Of a stretch of DNA of 52,837 nt, positions 22,560-38,835 are shown one piece after another. Position 1 is the stretch's first letter, and each line of letters starts with the position of its first letter. The stretch comes from Elusimicrobiota bacterium (lineage in GTDB: Bacteria > CG03 > SLGR01). The stretch covers positions 1 to 52,837 of the forward strand of contig PWEK01000075.1 in the NCBI GenBank assembly GCA_003553445.1, written 5' to 3'. Made by a program: the position numbers and the translations under genes. The notes under the pieces were generated by a model, which searched no databases, was not told the DNA's origin, and saw nothing but the letters and a program-made list of their open reading frames with translations.

Positions 22560-23486
22560 TCACCTTGCCTTAACACTGTAAATAAGCATGAATAAGCTCC
22601 CCAGCATAAATGACTCATCAGCACTGATTCTGGCTCCTGCGCGAAGAAGGACTCTGGCTATTTCCGGATTTCCACATTTGATTGCATAATTTACCGCTGT
22701 TTTTCCCGCATTATCTTTCGCATGGACATCAGCACCGTAATAGAGCAGCATGCGGGTACTTCTGCTCTTTTCTTTAAGCAGTTTCAAATACTCTTTTCTA
22801 TTTGAAAATAATCTTAGGTGCAGTTTTTTTGTAATTTTGGGGTTTTTCTTTATATTCACGAGCATAAGAGGAGTAATTCCCCCTTTTTGCTTTGCGTTGA
22901 CATCTGCGCCGGCCTCAATCAATATTCTGAGTGTTTTATCGCAACCGGATTCAACTGCGTACATAAGCGGCGTCTGATAATAATTACCTTTTGGATTATC
23001 TCTGTCATTTACATTTGCTCCGGCTTCTATTAGGGTTTTTACTATTTTTATATTTCCATTCCATGCGGCAAACATTAAAGGGGTAATTCCACTGCCCACC
23101 TTTGCTCCGGGGTCAACTCCGTACTTTAATAACAACCTTACTGTTTCAAGGTCCTCATTTATAGATGCTGACACAAGGGATTCTTCTCCTTCGTTTTTTA
23201 TATCCACCTTTTTTGCCAACAACTTTATGATATTCCAGGCGCATCTTCGACGAACATAATATTTCGCAATAGCTTCCAGGGGGCCCTCCCGATTTTTGTC
23301 TTTTATATTAACATCTGCTTTTGCTTTTATAAGCAGTCTGGTAATATTTGGATATCTGTAGAGAGCCGCCCAGTACAGAGGAGTTCTTCCGTCTTTGTCA
23401 GGCCTGTTAACATCAGCTCCTCTCCTTATAAGCCTCCGACACAATTTTACTTTGCCTGCTTTTACTGCATTAATCAACTCAGTCAT
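22560..23486 (-). CDS. Ankyrin-repeat protein
   Basis: 308 residues, composed almost entirely of ankyrin repeats. Examples are DGRTPLYWAALYRYPNITRLLIKAKADVN, SGITPLMFAAWNGNIKIVKTLIEAGANVN, QTPLMYAVESGCDKTLRILIEAGADVN and GKTAVNYAIKCGNPEIARVLLRAGA (each cut short here). About eight repeats can be seen, with a 35-residue insert between repeats 6 and 7 (KKNPKITKKLHLRLF). No signal peptide; cytosolic. The repeats bind other proteins, partner unknown. AGGAGG stands seven bases before the ATG. It follows the 131-residue gene by 52 bases and is likely read from that gene's strong promoter. Confidence 0.9.
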   Translation of the reverse strand: MTELINAVKAGKVKLCRRLIRRGADVNRPDKDGRTPLYWAALYRYPNITRLLIKAKADVNIKDKNREGPLEAIAKYYVRRRCAWNIIKLLAKKVDIKNEGEESLVSASINEDLETVRLLLKYGVDPGAKVGSGITPLMFAAWNGNIKIVKTLIEAGANVNDRDNPKGNYYQTPLMYAVESGCDKTLRILIEAGADVNAKQKGGITPLMLVNIKKNPKITKKLHLRLFSNRKEYLKLLKEKSRSTRMLLYYGADVHAKDNAGKTAVNYAIKCGNPEIARVLLRAGARISADESFMLGSLFMLIYSVKAR

Positions 23487-29549: not shown

Positions 29550-31340
29550 CTACTCCCCGGTCCGCGGAATGTATGGGGTCTTCCTGTACTCCGTATGCAA
29601 AAGCCTGTGTGACAAATCTCCCAGCGGTTTCTCCAAAAATTTTTCATAAAGCTCAATTACCGCCGGATTTTCATGAGACTGTCTAAGCTCCATAGACTCG
29701 TCTTCCCTGTAAAGGGCCTCCATTCTTCTTTTTCTTCTTTCATAGTTAGTAGGTACAGGCTGTCCGCCTCCCCCGATACAACCCCCGGGACATGTCATTA
29801 TCTCAATGAAATGATAATTACATTTTCCATCCTTAACCTTTTCCAGTATTTTTCTTGCATTGCCAAGCCCGTGAGCAACTGCAACATTAACATTGAGCCC
29901 GTTTATTTCCACCGATGCTTCCTTGATTTCCTTCATTCCCCTGGCAGGTTCAAAATCCAGCCTGGGCATTTTGCTTCCCGTCAGCTTGAAATATGCGGTT
30001 CTCAAAGCCGCCTCCATAACCCCTCCGGTCGCGCCGAAAATTGTGGCCGCCCCTGTGGAAGTCCCCAGGGGGATGTCAAACCTCTCGCCCGCCAGCTTAG
30101 CGTAATCTATGCCCGCTTCCCTGATCATATCTCCCAGCTCCCGTGTTGTTAAAACATGATCAACATCGGGGAAACCTTTCCCTTCATCCGTTCCTGTTTT
30201 CTCCTTCCAGTATCTGTATGCCGAATTCATCTCTTTTCTTTTTGCTTCGAACTTTTTTGCCGTACAGGGCATAACAGAGACCACCGTTATTTTCTCCGGG
30301 CTTATGTCAAGTTTTTCGGCATAATATGTTTTCGCAGCCGCCCCAAACATCTGCTGGGGAGATTTACAGGAAGAGATATGCGACAGAATACCCGGGAAAA
30401 AATTTTCCGCGAATCTTATCCACCCGGGTGAACACGATGTAATCATGGGAAGAACGCCCCCGGTTTTAATCCTGTCAATTAACTCATGCCCTTCTTCCAC
30501 AATTGTAAGGTCCGCGGTAAACTGGGTATCAAAAACCCTGTCGTAATTCATCTTTCTCAATGCAGCCACAAGCTTGCCCGTTGTGGATGTGCCGGACTCA
30601 ATTCCAAACTCTTCACCGATAGCTGCCCTGATAGCCGGGGCTGTCTGAACTACAACGAACTTATCCGGGTCGTCAAGAGCCCCCCATACTTTGTCAACCT
30701 CACTTTTGGCCATTAGCGCTCCGGTAGGGCATACAAGCAAACACTGGCCGCAGTTAACACATTCTGAATTCCCCAAACCCCTGTCAAAAAATGTAGAAAC
30801 ATGAGCATCCATCCCCCTGCCGGCAATATCTATTGCCTTTACCGACTGCATCTGACTGCATACTTCCACACACCTTGCGCAGAGAATACACTTATCATGA
30901 TCCCTGATGAGCGAATGGGATGTCTCGTCCAGCTTCACTTTCTTTTTCCTTATATTGGGATACGTAGCCTCTCTTACATCAAGCTCGTCCGCCATCTTCT
31001 GAAGCTCGCATTTCATATTTTTATCGCACTGCAGACAGTTCCGCGGGTGGTTCGAAAGAAGAAGCTTAAGGTTTGTCTTTCTTGCCCGTCGAACCCTCTT
31101 TGTATTTGTGAAAATCTGCATCCCTTCACTAATTTTTGTTACACATGCCCTCAACAATGACTTTGCACCTTCCACTTCCACCACACAGAGGCCACATGAA
31201 GCTCTTTCGCTGACGCCCTCAAGATAACAAAGATTTGGAACCTTAATCCCCGTCTCCAGACAAGCCTCAAGGACTGTGGTTCCTTCATACATCAAATAAT
31301 CCGATCCATTTATTCTTATCCGCAACTGTTTATGATTCAT
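29550..31340 (-). CDS. hydA: [FeFe] hydrogenase catalytic subunit (HydA/HndD type)
   Basis: 596 residues. N-terminal [2Fe-2S] domain (PNLCYLEGVSERASCGLC), the His-ligated [4Fe-4S] motif (HPRNCLQCDKNMKC), two ferredoxin [4Fe-4S] motifs (CILCARCVEVC and CVNCGQCLLVCP), then the H-cluster domain with L1 TSCSPGW, L2 MPCTAKKFE and L3 EIMTCPGGCIGGGGQP. The four H-cluster Cys are present. L1 has Ser304 where the standard TSCCPxW has the proton-relay Cys. Reduces protons or oxidises H2 in the cytosol. It lacks the extra C-terminal [2Fe-2S] of Thermotoga HydA. CGGAG precedes the ATG, 16 bases after hydB; it is the last gene of the operon. Confidence 0.96.
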   Translation of the reverse strand: MNHKQLRIRINGSDYLMYEGTTVLEACLETGIKVPNLCYLEGVSERASCGLCVVEVEGAKSLLRACVTKISEGMQIFTNTKRVRRARKTNLKLLLSNHPRNCLQCDKNMKCELQKMADELDVREATYPNIRKKKVKLDETSHSLIRDHDKCILCARCVEVCSQMQSVKAIDIAGRGMDAHVSTFFDRGLGNSECVNCGQCLLVCPTGALMAKSEVDKVWGALDDPDKFVVVQTAPAIRAAIGEEFGIESGTSTTGKLVAALRKMNYDRVFDTQFTADLTIVEEGHELIDRIKTGGVLPMITSCSPGWIRFAENFFPGILSHISSCKSPQQMFGAAAKTYYAEKLDISPEKITVVSVMPCTAKKFEAKRKEMNSAYRYWKEKTGTDEGKGFPDVDHVLTTRELGDMIREAGIDYAKLAGERFDIPLGTSTGAATIFGATGGVMEAALRTAYFKLTGSKMPRLDFEPARGMKEIKEASVEINGLNVNVAVAHGLGNARKILEKVKDGKCNYHFIEIMTCPGGCIGGGGQPVPTNYERRKRRMEALYREDESMELRQSHENPAVIELYEKFLEKPLGDLSHRLLHTEYRKTPYIPRTGE

Positions 31341-31356: not shown

Positions 31357-34300
31357 CTAATCTACCTTTACATCGCACCTTAAACACCTTCCCGCCTCAG
31401 TGCGAACCTGGTTTTTTGTAAACCCTTTTACAACCTCTTTAAAATTCTTCTTTCTCTCGGATATATTTATTCTACCCGGTCTCCTGGGGCCGCTCCCGTC
31501 GGGCTTATCCGGAGGAGCCATTTTATAACTGTAGTTTTTTATTATCTTTCCAAACCGGCTCTCCCCCATTAATTTGGCATCTGCGCCCCGGGCCGCTTTC
31601 TTTCCCAGGGCCATAGCCTGGGCAGCGGTGGCGGGGCCGCTGAAAACATCCCCGGCAGTATATATCCCCTCCGAAACCTCCATATTGCACGGATCCGCTT
31701 TAAGGGTATTGCCGGGAGAAACCTCAAATCCACAGCCTGAAAGAAATTCCTCATCCACACTCTCTCCTATGGCAATTAAAGCATTATCGCATTTGATTTC
31801 TTCAAACTTTCCGGTCCTCACCGGGCTTCTGCGCCCTGTAATATCGCATTCACCCGGCCTGGAAATTTCCACTCTGAGAGAATTAAGCGCGCCGCTTTCT
31901 CCCTTGAATTCCACAGGAGACCTCCAGAACCTGATATCAATCCCTTCCTGAATAGCATCTTCAATCTCATGAACATTTGCCGGCATGTCTTCTCTGCCTC
32001 TTCTATAAACCACAGTTACATCACAGCCGTATCTTAAGGCTGTTCTCGCGGCATCAATTGCGACATTTCCGCCGCCAATAACCACAACCTTTTTCTTTAA
32101 TTCCGGCTCTTTTCCGGAAGCAACCCTGCGCAATAGAGAGATGCCGTGATGAACCCCATTAAGCTCATTTCCCTTAACTTTTAACTCTCTGCTCTTATAG
32201 GCTCCGGTTGCCATAATTACGGCATCGTTTTTTCCGCGCAGCTTCTTTATATCCGCAGGAGACATATCCCTGCCAAGCCTGAATTTAACTCCTGTTTTTT
32301 CTATAAACCTGATCTCTCTTTCCAGAACATTGCGGGGAAGCCGGTATGCGGGTATTCCCCATCTTAAAATACCGCCTGCGCTCTCTTCTCTGTCGTAAAC
32401 CGTAACATTATGTCCAAGCATTTCCAGATAAAAGGCTGCTGTAAGGCCGGCAGGTCCCCCTCCGACCACCGCAATTTTTTTACCTGATGAAGGAAGCCTT
32501 CTCTTTCTAAATATTTCCGAGAACTCCTCCAGCTTGCCTTCTTTGGAAAACTTATCAGCAATATACCTGTGAACTTCCCCCTGATTAACCGGAGCGTCTA
32601 TATCCTCCCTGCGGCATCTCATTTTACAGTGAAAATGACAGATCCTCCCTATAGAAGCCGGGAGGGGATTGTCCTGAAGTATAAGCTCAAACGCTTCCCT
32701 TTCTTTTTCCTCAAGGAAAAGCTCCAAATACCCCGGTATGTTCATATGAAGGGGGCAACTGTTCTCGCAAGGGGAAATGAAAAGCTCACCGCATACTCCG
32801 CCATCGCAGTAGTTCTCTTTTATGTGCTGACGGTATTCCTCCATAAAGTACTTCATCGTTGTTACCACCGGATTCGGTCCGGTCTGCCCAAGACCGCAAA
32901 GCGCGCTGTCCTTTATAACCTCACTCAGATTATCAAGTTCTTTCAGGATAGAAAAATCCCCCTGACCGTTTTTTATTCTCCTGAGCATATCAAGTGAATG
33001 ATTTATTCCTTCCCTGCAGGGCACGCATTTTCCGCACGACTCGGAAGTGGTAAACTCCGTAAAATAGTGGGCCACATCAACCATACAGTTATCTTCATCC
33101 ATAACGACGACCCCTCCGGAACCCATAATCGCCCCGAGCTTTTTAAGCGCCTCATAATCAATGGTGCTTTCAAACTTTTCCGCAGGTATGCATCCTCCAG
33201 ACGGCCCCCCGGTCTGCACCGCTTTTACTTTTTTATTTCCGCCCGCTCCACCACCTATATCATAGATAAGCTTTTTCAGCGGCGTACCCAGGGGAAGTTC
33301 CACAAGCCCCGTATTTTTCACCTTTCCCACCAGAGAGAATACCTTGGTGCCGGTGCTTTCAGGGGTCCCGGTGCTTGAAAATTTCTTTCCCCCCACAGCG
33401 ATAATCATCGGGATGTTTGAAAGGGTTTCAACATTATTTATGCACGTCGGCTTTCCGTATAGCCCTTTTTCTGAAGGATAGGGGGGCCTGGGCATGGGCC
33501 ACCCCGGCTTACCGTGAACAGATGATATAAGGGCGGTCTCCTCTCCGCATACAAAGGCGCCTGCTCCCTCAACAATTTTTATATTAAAGCTGAAATCCCT
33601 TCCCATTATATTCTCGCCCAGTATTCCGATTTCTTCCGCCTGTTTTATCGCTCTTTTAAGCCTCTCAACCGCAACCGGGTACTCTGCTCTGCAGTATATA
33701 ACACCTTCTTTCGCTCCTGTAACAAAACCCGCAATAATCATTCCCTCAATAACCATATGCGGGTCCCCCTCAAGTTCGTTACGGTTCATGTAGGCCCCCG
33801 GGTCTCCCTCATCGGCATTGCAGAATATATACTTTGGGTTTTCTTTGTTTTTCTTCAGCATATTCCATTTAATCCAGACCGGAAACCCCGCTCCGCCCCT
33901 TCCCCGCAAACCGGACTCTTTTATTTCTGCGAGAACATCCTCTCCGGTCATTTCACTAAGTACGCTATAGAGAGAACCGTAACCGCCCACACCTATATAT
34001 TCACTGATTTCTTCCGGGTCAATTAGACCGCAATCCCTTAAAACATCCTTCTGCTGGCCTTTGTAGAACCCCACCTCGTTCCACAGCGGGATATCTTCCA
34101 GTCCGGAACCGTATTCTATCTGAGAGGTATGATGATTCCATTTTTCAATTTTACAGAATGTTTTGCTGTTTTTCGGTTCTCCTTTTTTAATATTTGAAAC
34201 CGCCTCTTTTATGTCTTTTTTCTCAACGTTTTTCATAATAGTCAACGGCTTGCCGGGTATATAAATATTTACAAAAGGCTCCTCCGCGCAGAAGCCGAAA

Positions 34301-34494
34301 CAGCCCGTCTTCCTCAAAACGGCATCCACCCCCTGTTTTTCAAGCTCTTTTCTGAATTCTTCGTATATCCTGTCAGCTCCGTTTCCCATTCCGCATGTGC
34401 TCATTCCTACAGCAATGCCCGGCTTATCCGGTTTAACGGCCGACAGCCCCTTATCCCTAACTTTTACAAGATCTTCATATTTCTCTATTTTCAT
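31357..34494 (-). CDS. hydB: NuoF/HydB-type flavoprotein fused to a GltD/NfnB-like oxidoreductase
   Basis: 1045 residues. Order: thioredoxin-like [2Fe-2S] (about 25-105; STCGMGNG, TGCFGFCAEEP); NuoF-type FMN/NAD(H) domain (140-400; GLRGRGGAGFPVWIKW, CNADEGDPGAYMNR); SLBB (about 395-470); a [4Fe-4S] site (ESCGKCVPCREG...CGLG, near 500-550). Where HydB normally ends in a two-cluster ferredoxin, the chain passes into a GltD-type domain: Fer4_20 cysteines (SPCENSCPLHMNIPGY, GRICHFHCKMRC), FAD loop GGGPAGL, second dinucleotide loop GGGNVAIDAARTA with YRRGREDMPA, and the family ending RCLRCD. So one chain has an NAD(H) site and a probable NADP(H) site. GAAGGG stands before the ATG. The frame is intact across the junction. 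Confidence 0.92.
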   Translation of the reverse strand: MKIEKYEDLVKVRDKGLSAVKPDKPGIAVGMSTCGMGNGADRIYEEFRKELEKQGVDAVLRKTGCFGFCAEEPFVNIYIPGKPLTIMKNVEKKDIKEAVSNIKKGEPKNSKTFCKIEKWNHHTSQIEYGSGLEDIPLWNEVGFYKGQQKDVLRDCGLIDPEEISEYIGVGGYGSLYSVLSEMTGEDVLAEIKESGLRGRGGAGFPVWIKWNMLKKNKENPKYIFCNADEGDPGAYMNRNELEGDPHMVIEGMIIAGFVTGAKEGVIYCRAEYPVAVERLKRAIKQAEEIGILGENIMGRDFSFNIKIVEGAGAFVCGEETALISSVHGKPGWPMPRPPYPSEKGLYGKPTCINNVETLSNIPMIIAVGGKKFSSTGTPESTGTKVFSLVGKVKNTGLVELPLGTPLKKLIYDIGGGAGGNKKVKAVQTGGPSGGCIPAEKFESTIDYEALKKLGAIMGSGGVVVMDEDNCMVDVAHYFTEFTTSESCGKCVPCREGINHSLDMLRRIKNGQGDFSILKELDNLSEVIKDSALCGLGQTGPNPVVTTMKYFMEEYRQHIKENYCDGGVCGELFISPCENSCPLHMNIPGYLELFLEEKEREAFELILQDNPLPASIGRICHFHCKMRCRREDIDAPVNQGEVHRYIADKFSKEGKLEEFSEIFRKRRLPSSGKKIAVVGGGPAGLTAAFYLEMLGHNVTVYDREESAGGILRWGIPAYRLPRNVLEREIRFIEKTGVKFRLGRDMSPADIKKLRGKNDAVIMATGAYKSRELKVKGNELNGVHHGISLLRRVASGKEPELKKKVVVIGGGNVAIDAARTALRYGCDVTVVYRRGREDMPANVHEIEDAIQEGIDIRFWRSPVEFKGESGALNSLRVEISRPGECDITGRRSPVRTGKFEEIKCDNALIAIGESVDEEFLSGCGFEVSPGNTLKADPCNMEVSEGIYTAGDVFSGPATAAQAMALGKKAARGADAKLMGESRFGKIIKNYSYKMAPPDKPDGSGPRRPGRINISERKKNFKEVVKGFTKNQVRTEAGRCLRCDVKVD

Positions 34495-34507: not shown

Positions 34508-34996
34508 TTAAAGTTCGCTGAGCTTCTCCTTAAGCATATCCACTGTCACATTTCCATAAATGTCTCCGTCTATTTCTACCACCGGCGCAAGGGCGCACTG
34601 TCCAAAACAGGCAACTGTCCTTACCGTGAGTTTCCTGTCCTTAGTAGTAAGAAAAAGTTTTGCGTCATTTGTATCGTCTCCCTCGAAATCATAGCTGTTT
34701 TTTAAATAATCAAGTATTTTCTTTGACCCCTTGGTATGACAGGCTGTTCCCCTGCATACAGAGATACAGTGGTCTCCCTGGGGTATAAGGCTGAAAAAAG
34801 AATAAAAAGTGGCCACCCCGTATATCTCAGAATACGCAGTGCCTGTTTTTTGGGCAACATAGCTTAGCTCCTCCTGGGGCAGATATTTATACCTGTTTGC
34901 TTTCTGAATTTCTTCGAGCATGCCAAGCAGCGCTCCATGGCCTCCTTCATGCTTTTTTATTATTTTATCTAATTTCTCCCTCTTTTTCGTATTCAA
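34508..34996 (-). CDS. hydC: NuoE/HydC-type [2Fe-2S] subunit
   Basis: 162 residues, starting with TTG behind AAGGAGA at seven bases. Helical N-terminus (ALLGMLEEIQKANRYKYLP) and thioredoxin-like domain with the four cluster cysteines in CRGTAC and ACFGQCALAP. Same family as NuoE, HndA and Thermotoga HydC. It passes electrons next to the NuoF-type flavin and is required in the known electron-bifurcating hydrogenases. 13 bases separate it from hydB and 16 from hydF. Confidence 0.93.
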   Translation of the reverse strand: MNTKKREKLDKIIKKHEGGHGALLGMLEEIQKANRYKYLPQEELSYVAQKTGTAYSEIYGVATFYSFFSLIPQGDHCISVCRGTACHTKGSKKILDYLKNSYDFEGDDTNDAKLFLTTKDRKLTVRTVACFGQCALAPVVEIDGDIYGNVTVDMLKEKLSEL

Positions 34997-35012: not shown

Positions 35013-36317
35013 TCAGTAAGACTCCGCCTTTTCGCTTAAACCTTCGTCATATTTTATTTTCCACGGCCGTAAAACCCTTTCCAGAACATTTCTTCCCGAC
35101 ACATATGATAAAAACAGGCCGTAATTGGTATAGGGAACCCCGGCAGATTCAATATCTCTCAGCCTGGCCTGCAGCTTCTGAGAACTTATCATACACCCTC
35201 CGCAGTGAATAATCAGGCTGTAGTCGGATATTTCATCATCTGCCTTAAACTCTCTTCCGAAGCTGTGGTCTACTTTGACGCCGCTGAAATATTTCTTAAT
35301 AAGGCGGGGAATCTTTACGGTACCGATATCCTCAGCTATTCTTGAATGATTGCATGCCTCGGCTATAAGAACCCTGTCGCCGGACTTTAACCCGTCGATA
35401 GCCGCTGTACCTTTCGCAAAATCTCTTAATCTTCCTCGGCTGAAATAGTTTATCATGACAATAGAAAAAGTAGATAGCTCTATATCTTCCTCAAGCCAAT
35501 CATGCATATATTCAACAGCCTGGGAATCTCCTATGACAGCATGAGGCTTCTTTCCTAAGGCCGATATAAATTCCCTGAATTTTCTTTTTTCTTTCTCTTT
35601 AAGCAAGGCATCGCCGCTTCGGGCCCTGTCAAGATCAAGCCGATAACACACAGGCCAGGCCCGGTGCCTGGTTATGTATTCCTGAATCATAGACTGCGGA
35701 CGAAGCAACCTCCCCTCGGGAGCCTCTTCATCCATAACAATAACGAGAACATAAAACTCACCACTTTTTATAAACGGCAGCAGTTCGGTCTTCTTATTAG
35801 GGTTTCTGAAGTTTTCAAGAATAAAATTCAAAAGACGCATTCGCTCATATTCTTCAACAGCGCAAATACTGATTTTTTTATAAAACTTTAATACTCTTAT
35901 GTCAGACTCTATCTTATCAAATGAGTTTCTGCTGCTTTCTTTGAAAATATTGTAAATAACAAGAACCTGCTTATTAAGCTTTCTTGCAGCCTCTAAAAGC
36001 TCTCTTTCCGGAGAATAAACACCTGAAGAGGGATCTATTACAATAAGCACAAGGTCACACTCTTTCAAATCCCCGAGAACTTTATCTTTCTTCTTTTTCC
36101 CGAGAGCTCCCTTTTCATCAACACCGGCAGTATCGTATAAACTTACGGGGCCAAGACCGTGAATTTCTTTATTAAGAACCCTGGTGTCTGCCGTTGTTCC
36201 GGGCGTTTCATCAACAAGCGAAGCAGGCTGCTGGAGAAGAAGATTCATAACAGTACTTTTACCGCTGTTCATCTTTCCGAATATTCCTATGTGGTTTCTG
36301 TCAACCGGCGCAGACAT
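35013..36317 (-). CDS. hydF: [FeFe] hydrogenase maturation GTPase HydF
   Basis: 434 residues. GTPase domain with P-loop GKMNSGKST, PGTTAD (switch) and DTAG; a dimerisation domain; and a C-terminal cluster domain with CNH (near residue 325) and HCGGC (near 375), the C-x-H ... H-C-x2-C [4Fe-4S] ligand set. Scaffold on which the 2Fe subcluster is assembled before transfer to HydA. Overlaps the end of hydE by 17 bases, so it is translationally coupled; GGGGGA stands before the ATG. Confidence 0.95.
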   Translation of the reverse strand: MSAPVDRNHIGIFGKMNSGKSTVMNLLLQQPASLVDETPGTTADTRVLNKEIHGLGPVSLYDTAGVDEKGALGKKKKDKVLGDLKECDLVLIVIDPSSGVYSPERELLEAARKLNKQVLVIYNIFKESSRNSFDKIESDIRVLKFYKKISICAVEEYERMRLLNFILENFRNPNKKTELLPFIKSGEFYVLVIVMDEEAPEGRLLRPQSMIQEYITRHRAWPVCYRLDLDRARSGDALLKEKEKRKFREFISALGKKPHAVIGDSQAVEYMHDWLEEDIELSTFSIVMINYFSRGRLRDFAKGTAAIDGLKSGDRVLIAEACNHSRIAEDIGTVKIPRLIKKYFSGVKVDHSFGREFKADDEISDYSLIIHCGGCMISSQKLQARLRDIESAGVPYTNYGLFLSYVSGRNVLERVLRPWKIKYDEGLSEKAESY

Positions 36318-37332
36318 TATTTCTTTCCCCCTCTTTCCTTACGAACCTCAGTGAATCTCCCCATTCGTTAAAGGCCGCCTTCATCCCTACAGATTCAATT
36401 CTGCGTACAATGCATTCTCTGCATTCCGATGCCTTTTCAGTTAAACAGGGTTTCCCATCATAAAGAGTATAATCATTCCTGTATTTGACCGGGGTAACCC
36501 CGGGCATTATTATATTCGCCCCTGCCTCCAGGGCCATTTCCCTGCCTCTTTTATGCAGGGTCTGGAAGGCGGTCGTTGCAGCGATATTTATATCAGGCAT
36601 CATTATTCTTAAAACGGAGATCATATTCAGGCTTCTCATTAAAGCCTCTCTTTTGCTGTAGGACCTCCTTCCTTTTAGAGGAGTCCTCTCATGGGGGATA
36701 AATGGGCCCATTCCTACCATATCCACATCCATTTCACTTATAAAAATGAGGTCTTCCGCCAGGTTATCCAATTTCTGATAAGGAGAATGAACCATAACAC
36801 CGGTTCCGGTTTGAAAACCTGTTTCCTGTAAACTCTTCAGGCATTTAGTTCTTTCAGCGAAGCTCATATATGCCGGATGCAGCGAGCCGTAATGCTCCGG
36901 GCTGGAGGTTTCTATTCTTAGTAGGTATCTGTGAGCCCCCGCCTTAAAAAACCTCCTGTAAACATTTTTTTTCTGCTCTCCGCAGCAGAGAGTTATACCC
37001 AGCCCGGGAAATTTTCTTTTTATACTCCTTACTACGTCACAGACAAAATCCACGAATTCCCGGGAGTTATCCTGTCCGGACTGCAGAACAAGAGACCCGT
37101 AACCGGAGTCTTTGCAAAACTCAGCGCATTTAAGAATTTCTCCGGCGGTCATACGGTACCTTTTAATACCCGAATTGGATTTTCTAATCCCGCAGTAAAA
37201 ACAGTCATTGCAGCAGATATTGGAAAACTCTATTAACCCCCTGAAATATACACTGCTGCCTACTTCCCTGTCACGCAATGAAGAGGCGGCGGAAAAGAGT
37301 TCTTTCTGCTCATCCCCGTCAAACCGGAGCAT
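36301..37332 (-). CDS. hydE: [FeFe] hydrogenase maturase HydE (radical SAM)
   Basis: 343 residues. Radical-SAM cluster motif C-x3-C-x2-C in CCNDCFYCGIRK, followed by a (beta/alpha)8 barrel with the family segments LQSGQD, GTGVMVHSPYQ, MVGMGPFIPHERTP and ATTAFQTL. Works on the HydG product during synthesis of the dithiomethylamine-bearing cluster. AAGGAA before the ATG; 16 bases after hydG. Length is normal for the family. Confidence 0.95.
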   Translation of the reverse strand: MLRFDGDEQKELFSAASSLRDREVGSSVYFRGLIEFSNICCNDCFYCGIRKSNSGIKRYRMTAGEILKCAEFCKDSGYGSLVLQSGQDNSREFVDFVCDVVRSIKRKFPGLGITLCCGEQKKNVYRRFFKAGAHRYLLRIETSSPEHYGSLHPAYMSFAERTKCLKSLQETGFQTGTGVMVHSPYQKLDNLAEDLIFISEMDVDMVGMGPFIPHERTPLKGRRSYSKREALMRSLNMISVLRIMMPDINIAATTAFQTLHKRGREMALEAGANIIMPGVTPVKYRNDYTLYDGKPCLTEKASECRECIVRRIESVGMKAAFNEWGDSLRFVRKEGERNNVCAG

Positions 37333-37348: not shown

Positions 37349-38746
37349 TTAGAAATACAGATCTCTTTCTCCTTTCTCTATTCTGCCAAGAAAATCCTCT
37401 GTCCGCCGGCGCCTTGAACAATCAGGAATATCCCCCAGTTTTTCATCAATAAGCTTTTCTCCGGCCCTCCGTGTCTCTTCATCAGCGTAATCAACCAGGT
37501 ATTCTTTCAGTGTAGTAAGGGCATTTGGGAGGCAGTGAAGCTTTATCAACCCGGGCTTGGCCAGCTCCATGAAATCAGTTCCGACCCTGCCGAGCCTGTA
37601 ACATCCGGTGCAGAAAGATGGAATATACCCCAGTTTAATGACTGACTTAATTACATCACCGGCCGGACGGTTGTCATTCAGAGAGAACTGACCGCTTTCA
37701 TAACAGCTTTCTTCTCCCTCATATCCCCCCGGAGAAGTTCTCGAACCGGCGCTTATCTGAGAAACCCCCAGGTTAAAAAGCTCTTCCCTTAGAAGAGGCG
37801 ACTCCCTTGTCGAAAGTATAATACCGGTGTAAGGCACCGCGCACCGCAGAACCGCCACGATTTTTTTAAAATCCATATCGCTTACAGGATGGGGGGTATT
37901 GTGCGAAAGGGGCGCTCCGGCAGCCGGTTCAACCCGGGGAACTGATATTGTATGAGGGCCAACCCCGAATTTTTTATCCAGATGACTGGAGTGCTCAAGA
38001 AGAGAAAGGACTTCAAACCTGTAATCGTAAAGGCCAAAGAGAGCCCCGATACCCACATCATTGAGGCCATTCTCCAGCGCCCTGTCCATTGTTGAGAGCC
38101 TAAAAAAATAATCGCTTTTTCTTCCCCCGGGATGCATTTTCTCATAGGTCGGCCGGTGATAGGTCTCCTGAAACACCGTATAGGTGCCTATACGGGAATC
38201 AGCCAGTTTCCGCAACTCACCGGGTTCAAGCGGAGGAACCTCAACATTAATACGCCTTACGTAACTGCCGTCTTCGCCAGCAACTTCATAAGCTGTCTTT
38301 ATTGAATTTAAAAAATAATCAAAAGAACACTTCTGCGGATTCTCTCCCATAAGCATAAGAATCCTTTTATGCCCCTGCCTCAGCAGCGCCCTGACCTCAT
38401 CCTTTATCTGGTCATTACTGAGACATTTTCTTTTAATACCTGTATTTTCTTTTCTGTATCCGCAGTATAGACAGCTGTTTGAGCAGTAATTTGATATGTA
38501 AAGAGGAGCAAAAAGAACAAGCCTTCTTCCGTAAATGAGATTTTTTATCCTTGAAGCCGCATCAAAAAGCCTCTGCAGCTCCCCCCTGTTTTTAATATTC
38601 AAAAGGACCGCCGCCTCATAACAGGAAAGCCCTTTAAGCTTCAGCGCCTTATTAATTATTTTATCTTTATCTGAAGAAGAAGCTTTTTCAGTTTGTTCTA
38701 TTATATTATGTAAATCTTTTTCTTTTATTACTGCTGTTTCCTTCAT
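37349..38746 (-). CDS. hydG: [FeFe] hydrogenase maturase HydG (tyrosine lyase, radical SAM)
   Basis: 465 residues. N-terminal radical-SAM motif CSNSCLYCGYRK, barrel, and the C-terminal second-cluster motif C-x2-C-x22-C starting CTGCYRLGRVG and ending at LIKLHC, which binds the auxiliary cluster carrying the dangler iron. Cleaves tyrosine to give CO and cyanide ligands. First gene of the operon; its ATG is about 55 bases downstream of the predicted transcription start and about 30 bases after the Rex-type operator. Only a weak ribosome site is seen. Confidence 0.96.
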   Translation of the reverse strand: MKETAVIKEKDLHNIIEQTEKASSSDKDKIINKALKLKGLSCYEAAVLLNIKNRGELQRLFDAASRIKNLIYGRRLVLFAPLYISNYCSNSCLYCGYRKENTGIKRKCLSNDQIKDEVRALLRQGHKRILMLMGENPQKCSFDYFLNSIKTAYEVAGEDGSYVRRINVEVPPLEPGELRKLADSRIGTYTVFQETYHRPTYEKMHPGGRKSDYFFRLSTMDRALENGLNDVGIGALFGLYDYRFEVLSLLEHSSHLDKKFGVGPHTISVPRVEPAAGAPLSHNTPHPVSDMDFKKIVAVLRCAVPYTGIILSTRESPLLREELFNLGVSQISAGSRTSPGGYEGEESCYESGQFSLNDNRPAGDVIKSVIKLGYIPSFCTGCYRLGRVGTDFMELAKPGLIKLHCLPNALTTLKEYLVDYADEETRRAGEKLIDEKLGDIPDCSRRRRTEDFLGRIEKGERDLYF

Positions 38747-38777: not shown

Positions 38778-38795
38778 TTGTGAAAAATTTCACAA
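38778..38795. promoter_or_regulatory. Rex-type operator of the hydrogenase operon
   Basis: TTGTGAAAAATTTCACAA: 8-base perfect arms with two central bases, identical to the Rex consensus TTGTGAA-N4-TTCACAA. It also fits the HcpR/CRP pattern TGTGA-N6-TCACA. It lies between about +5 and +23 of the predicted transcript, where a repressor would block elongation or initiation. Rex releases DNA when NADH/NAD+ is high, which fits induction of a hydrogenase that disposes of reductant. Confidence 0.75.
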
Positions 38796-38806
38796 TATTG
38801 ATGGAA

Positions 38807-38835
38807 ATTTTACCATTTTTCAGCACTAAAATCAA
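38807..38835 (-). promoter_or_regulatory. Candidate promoter of the hyd operon
   Basis: Minus strand TTGATT (38830-38835), 17 bases, TAAAAT (38807-38812); 4/6 and 5/6 matches with ideal spacing. Start of transcription near 38800, directly before the operator. Confidence 0.5.

Follow-up and report, generated by a model that had tools for sequence, protein, structure and literature searches.

The palindrome upstream of hydG, the first gene of an [FeFe] hydrogenase operon, raises the question of which regulator governs the operon and to what signal it would respond. The 18-mer TTGTGAAAAATTTCACAA occupies positions 38778-38795 of the window (the whole stretch of 52,837 nucleotides that was analysed), 31 bp from hydG on its upstream side, and reads TTGTGAAATTTTTCACAA on the minus strand, which is the operon strand. 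We interpret it as very probably the operator of the redox-sensing repressor Rex, governing the six genes hydGEFCBA, a reading that is based on an exact and unique site, on a rex gene with a site of its own, and on the recurrence of both arrangements in related genomes.

The operator and its operon

The palindrome is an inverted repeat with 8-bp arms and a 2-bp centre, and departs from its reverse complement only at the two central bases. An earlier sequence-only reading had claimed that every fixed position of the Rex consensus is matched, and this is indeed the case for all 14 fixed positions of the generalized consensus TTGTGAANNNNTTCACAA, as quoted in PMC5317091. The S. aureus form TTGTGAAW4TTCACAA is fitted as well, W4 centre included (PMC2883068). 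Across the 2.22 Mb searched, the hydG site is the only exact TTGTGAANNNNTTCACAA match in the genome (0.015 expected per 2.22 Mb under an order-1 Markov model of the window), and the expectation within the 156-bp intergenic stretch is 2.6e-6 under a model of that stretch. The features of the locus, including those found in the relatives G004, G006 and G001, are as follows.

38830-38835, minus strand: putative -35 hexamer TTGATT (TTGATT also in G004 and G006, there with a spacer of 16 nt)
38807-38812, minus strand: putative extended -10, TGG-TAAAAT, with the transcription start expected near 38800
38778-38795, minus strand: predicted Rex operator, exact TTGTGAANNNNTTCACAA match, kept at hydG in G004, G006 and G001
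37349-38746, minus strand: hydG, H-cluster radical SAM maturase, first gene of the operon (NCBIfam TIGR03955 and Pfam)
36301-37332, minus strand: hydE, H-cluster radical SAM maturase (NCBIfam TIGR03956)
35013-36317, minus strand: hydF, H-cluster maturation GTPase (Pfam HydF_tetramer, HydF_dimer)
34508-34996, minus strand: hydC, thioredoxin-like [2Fe-2S] subunit of NuoE/HoxE type (Pfam PF01257)
31357-34494, minus strand: hydB, NuoF-like with a fused GltD/NfnB-like FAD-NAD(P) module (Pfam Complex1_51K, NADH_4Fe-4S, Fer4_20, Pyr_redox_2)
29550-31340, minus strand: hydA, catalytic subunit, group A [FeFe] hydrogenase (NCBIfam NF040763)

The promoter predicted on the minus strand consists of TTGATT, a 17-nt spacer and TAAAAT, with TG upstream of the -10 element, and places the operator at about +6 to +23 of the hydG transcript. 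These positions agree with the previous proposal of an operator at about +5 to +23 of a 17-spaced promoter in front of hydG, the promoter itself being a prediction. Three promoter-like sites were found compared with 1.6 in shuffled sequences, so that the promoter alone is weak evidence. At the hydG promoters of the relatives, likewise predicted only, the operator lies 10-14 nt past the predicted -10 element, most clearly in G004 and G006.

Identification of the operon genes follows from profile scores and gene context. HydG scores 518 bits against NCBIfam rSAM_HydG (cut-off 312) and HydA 859 bits against NF040763, 'NADH-dependent [FeFe] hydrogenase, group A6' (cut-off 765); HydF reaches 320.8 bits with TIGR03918, slightly below the cut-off of 325.6, and both HydF Pfam domains are present. 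The HydA catalytic domain, HydE, HydF and HydG, which together define a group A [FeFe] hydrogenase operon, thus all occur here. The genes are separated by short gaps or overlap, and the order hydG-E-F-C-B-A is the same in G004 (L135) and G001 (L139). Downstream of hydA, no terminator-like site was found before purC, the gene that follows, for which no tblastn match was obtained among the contigs of the relatives. Elsewhere in the window, positions 22560-23486 encode an ankyrin-repeat protein of 308 aa.

HydB comprises 1045 aa, and the full-length fusion is kept in G004 (67%) and G001 (63%). Its extra module might allow the hydrogenase to use NADPH besides NADH; no paper describing a GltD-like fusion in a hydrogenase HydB was found in the literature searched.

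The rex gene and recurrence of the sites

The window had been described as lacking rex, which is correct: the single copy in the genome is located on another contig than the hyd operon (G000:C73:18377-18991). Its product scores 52.5 bits with PF06971 and 237.8 bits with the NCBIfam Rex subfamily model (cut-off 126), exceeds the cut-offs of three Rex models, matches solved Rex structures by phmmer at an E value of about 2e-42, and retains the conserved motifs GAGNLG and QVRRDLS..GKPGVGY. The site in the rex promoter, TTGTGAATGTTTTCACGA, has one mismatch to the consensus, and its last base is the A of the rex start codon. This overlap (L004 1501-1520, G000:C73) is accompanied by the lack of a visible Shine-Dalgarno sequence, and TTGACA occurs upstream in 4/4 of the rex promoters that have a site; together these features suggest that the leader of the rex mRNA may be very short.

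The sequence-only reading had suggested looking for rex and for additional motif copies elsewhere in the genome. The former turned up on C73 with a near-consensus, one-mismatch site at its start. A second hydCBA operon in the same genome (L154 4946-9264, G000:C29) has no Rex site within three mismatches. By contrast with that operon, the second hydCBA operon of G004 has an exact site in front (L136), as does hydC of a second operon in G006 (L138). In the genome under study, intergenic sites with at most one mismatch occur only at hydG and rex, as found with a fixed-pattern search, which weaker sites may have escaped and which does not amount to a full regulon. A comparative study of Rex regulons was reportedly carried out by Ravcheev et al. 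in 2012.

Other near-matches in this genome (on C7, C33 and C89) lie inside open reading frames and were ruled out. The two-mismatch sequence TTGTAAACCCTTTTACAA (31416-31433), at the end of hydB before hydA, has no conserved counterpart in G004 or G001 and probably arose by chance. In G001, the substrate-binding gene of an ABC transporter (PF04392), an unusual Rex target, has an exact site 54 bp upstream (L117 1501-1518, G001:C233:2102-2119).

We compared 16 genomes of the phylum, related to one another, of which 12 bear hydG. A site within ~50 bp of the hydG start was found in 4/12; the genome under study, G004 and G006 have an exact site, and that of G001 departs from the consensus at one position. 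The G004 and G006 sites are identical to that of the window at 18/18 positions, whereas over the 60 bp upstream the three relatives share no more than 37-47% with the window (40-47% for G004 and G006). In the other 8/12 hydG-bearing genomes, which include G002 and the f5 lineage, the site is missing and no rex was detected. Among the genomes with a hydG site, rex was detected in the one under study, G001 and G004; none was detected in the 82%-complete assembly of G006, though both of its sites are present. A Fisher test of rex against hydG-site presence gives 4/220 = 0.018 with counts treated as independent, which they are not, because the genomes share ancestry and the sample is small.

Sites at rex itself follow a similar pattern. 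They have one mismatch in the genome under study and in G004 and are exact in G003 and G005, two genomes with rex but no hydG, whose best sites genome-wide are those directly before rex. In G001, rex closely follows an upstream gene and has no site of its own. The hydG promoters of named genomes with similar HydG proteins, mostly Clostridia, contained no TTGTGAANNNNTTCACAA match within two mismatches save for L051, which is a contig of G006; as variant Rex consensuses could escape a fixed pattern, this negative result is uninformative on Rex in that set.

Alternative readings of the palindrome

Binding of a CRP/FNR-family regulator such as HcpR to the hydG site had been put forward as the alternative to Rex, and the site does satisfy the HcpR/CRP consensus TTGTGANNNNNNTCACAA (PMC545781), as then observed. 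No such regulator was found to go with it: the helix-turn-helix domain HTH_Crp_2 (PF13545) is absent from the 97%-complete genome, whereas the same search was positive in 14/14 control genomes. The sole cNMP-binding protein (PF00027; L153 955-1830, G000:C50) lacks such a domain and adjoins a PilT-like gene, so called from the sequence of that gene, which suggests that it serves twitching motility and not transcription. Moreover, the inner A/T positions, which the CRP pattern leaves open, hardly vary among ten sites (A7 in 10/10, T12 in 9/10), and rex itself is preceded by near-consensus sites. A CRP-type regulator at hydG is therefore very unlikely and this reading largely refuted; the presence of rex, the lack of any Crp/FNR/HcpR-type helix-turn-helix and the conserved site support the earlier proposal of Rex, for which the regulator question is decided as far as genomic evidence reaches.

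The inverted repeat lies within the predicted leader of the hydG transcript and might act there as an RNA hairpin in the 5'UTR instead of as a DNA operator. However, such a hairpin would have an AT-rich stem and hardly any loop, and the same sequence is also present at rex promoters, where it overlaps or abuts the start codon at varying positions. Across the ten sites it is the sequence and not the pairing that is conserved, as the outer arms show no compensatory changes, and we consider action at the RNA level even less probable than a CRP-type regulator. Least credible is a functionless AT-rich repeat formed by chance, for although the region has a GC content of 29% and sites with one or two mismatches do arise by chance in open reading frames, the very low expectation for an exact intergenic match and the retention of the site in three other genomes despite diverged flanks leave this explanation next to no weight.

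The proposed switch and its counterparts

With Rex as the regulator, a mechanism can be outlined from the behaviour of the Rex family. At a low NADH/NAD+ ratio, a Rex dimer would occupy the operator and block RNA polymerase. As NADH builds up it would replace NAD+ on Rex, causing the protein to leave the DNA, whereupon the NADH-linked [FeFe] hydrogenase and its three maturases would be made together. This coordinated synthesis would allow surplus reducing power to exit as H2. Via the site at its own gene, Rex would presumably also limit its own synthesis. More tentatively, Rex may serve this lineage almost exclusively as a hydrogenase switch, with a regulon of little beyond rex and hyd and a single pyridine-nucleotide signal controlling an enzyme that, through the extra GltD/NfnB-like NAD(P) module of HydB, may use both NADH and NADPH; we regard this as possible but on balance doubtful.

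Switches of this type are already known, and their occurrence in another, little-studied bacterial lineage is well supported by the genomic patterns described above. In S. aureus, NAD+ favours and NADH prevents DNA binding by Rex, and both repression and release by NADH have been shown, although the targets there are fermentation genes and not a hydrogenase (PMC2883068). A closer likeness is found in Caldicellulosiruptor bescii, for which gel shifts show Rex binding at the promoters of hydG, hyd and rex and a rex deletion strain exists; a Rex operator is described at the ech promoter too (PMC6391272). Common to both cases are sites at hydG, at an [FeFe] hydrogenase operon and at rex itself, those of the present case being predicted. 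In C. bescii, however, the regulon is broad and hydG lies in a separate operon that includes a CopG-type regulator (PMC6391272), whereas here one predicted operator would serve all six hyd genes and near-exact intergenic sites occur only at hyd and rex. In Caldithrix abyssi, a Rex site has been predicted at a hydrogenase operon of which rex is the first gene, and that site has two deviations (PMC5317091); here, the hydG site has no deviation and rex is encoded on a different contig. With the present locus, control of [FeFe] hydrogenase by Rex, which is known in Clostridia-type bacteria and predicted in Caldithrix, would extend to a lineage of which one member, a metagenome-assembled genome, is filed as Elusimicrobia; the proposed switch also provides a testable prediction of when such organisms make hydrogenase.
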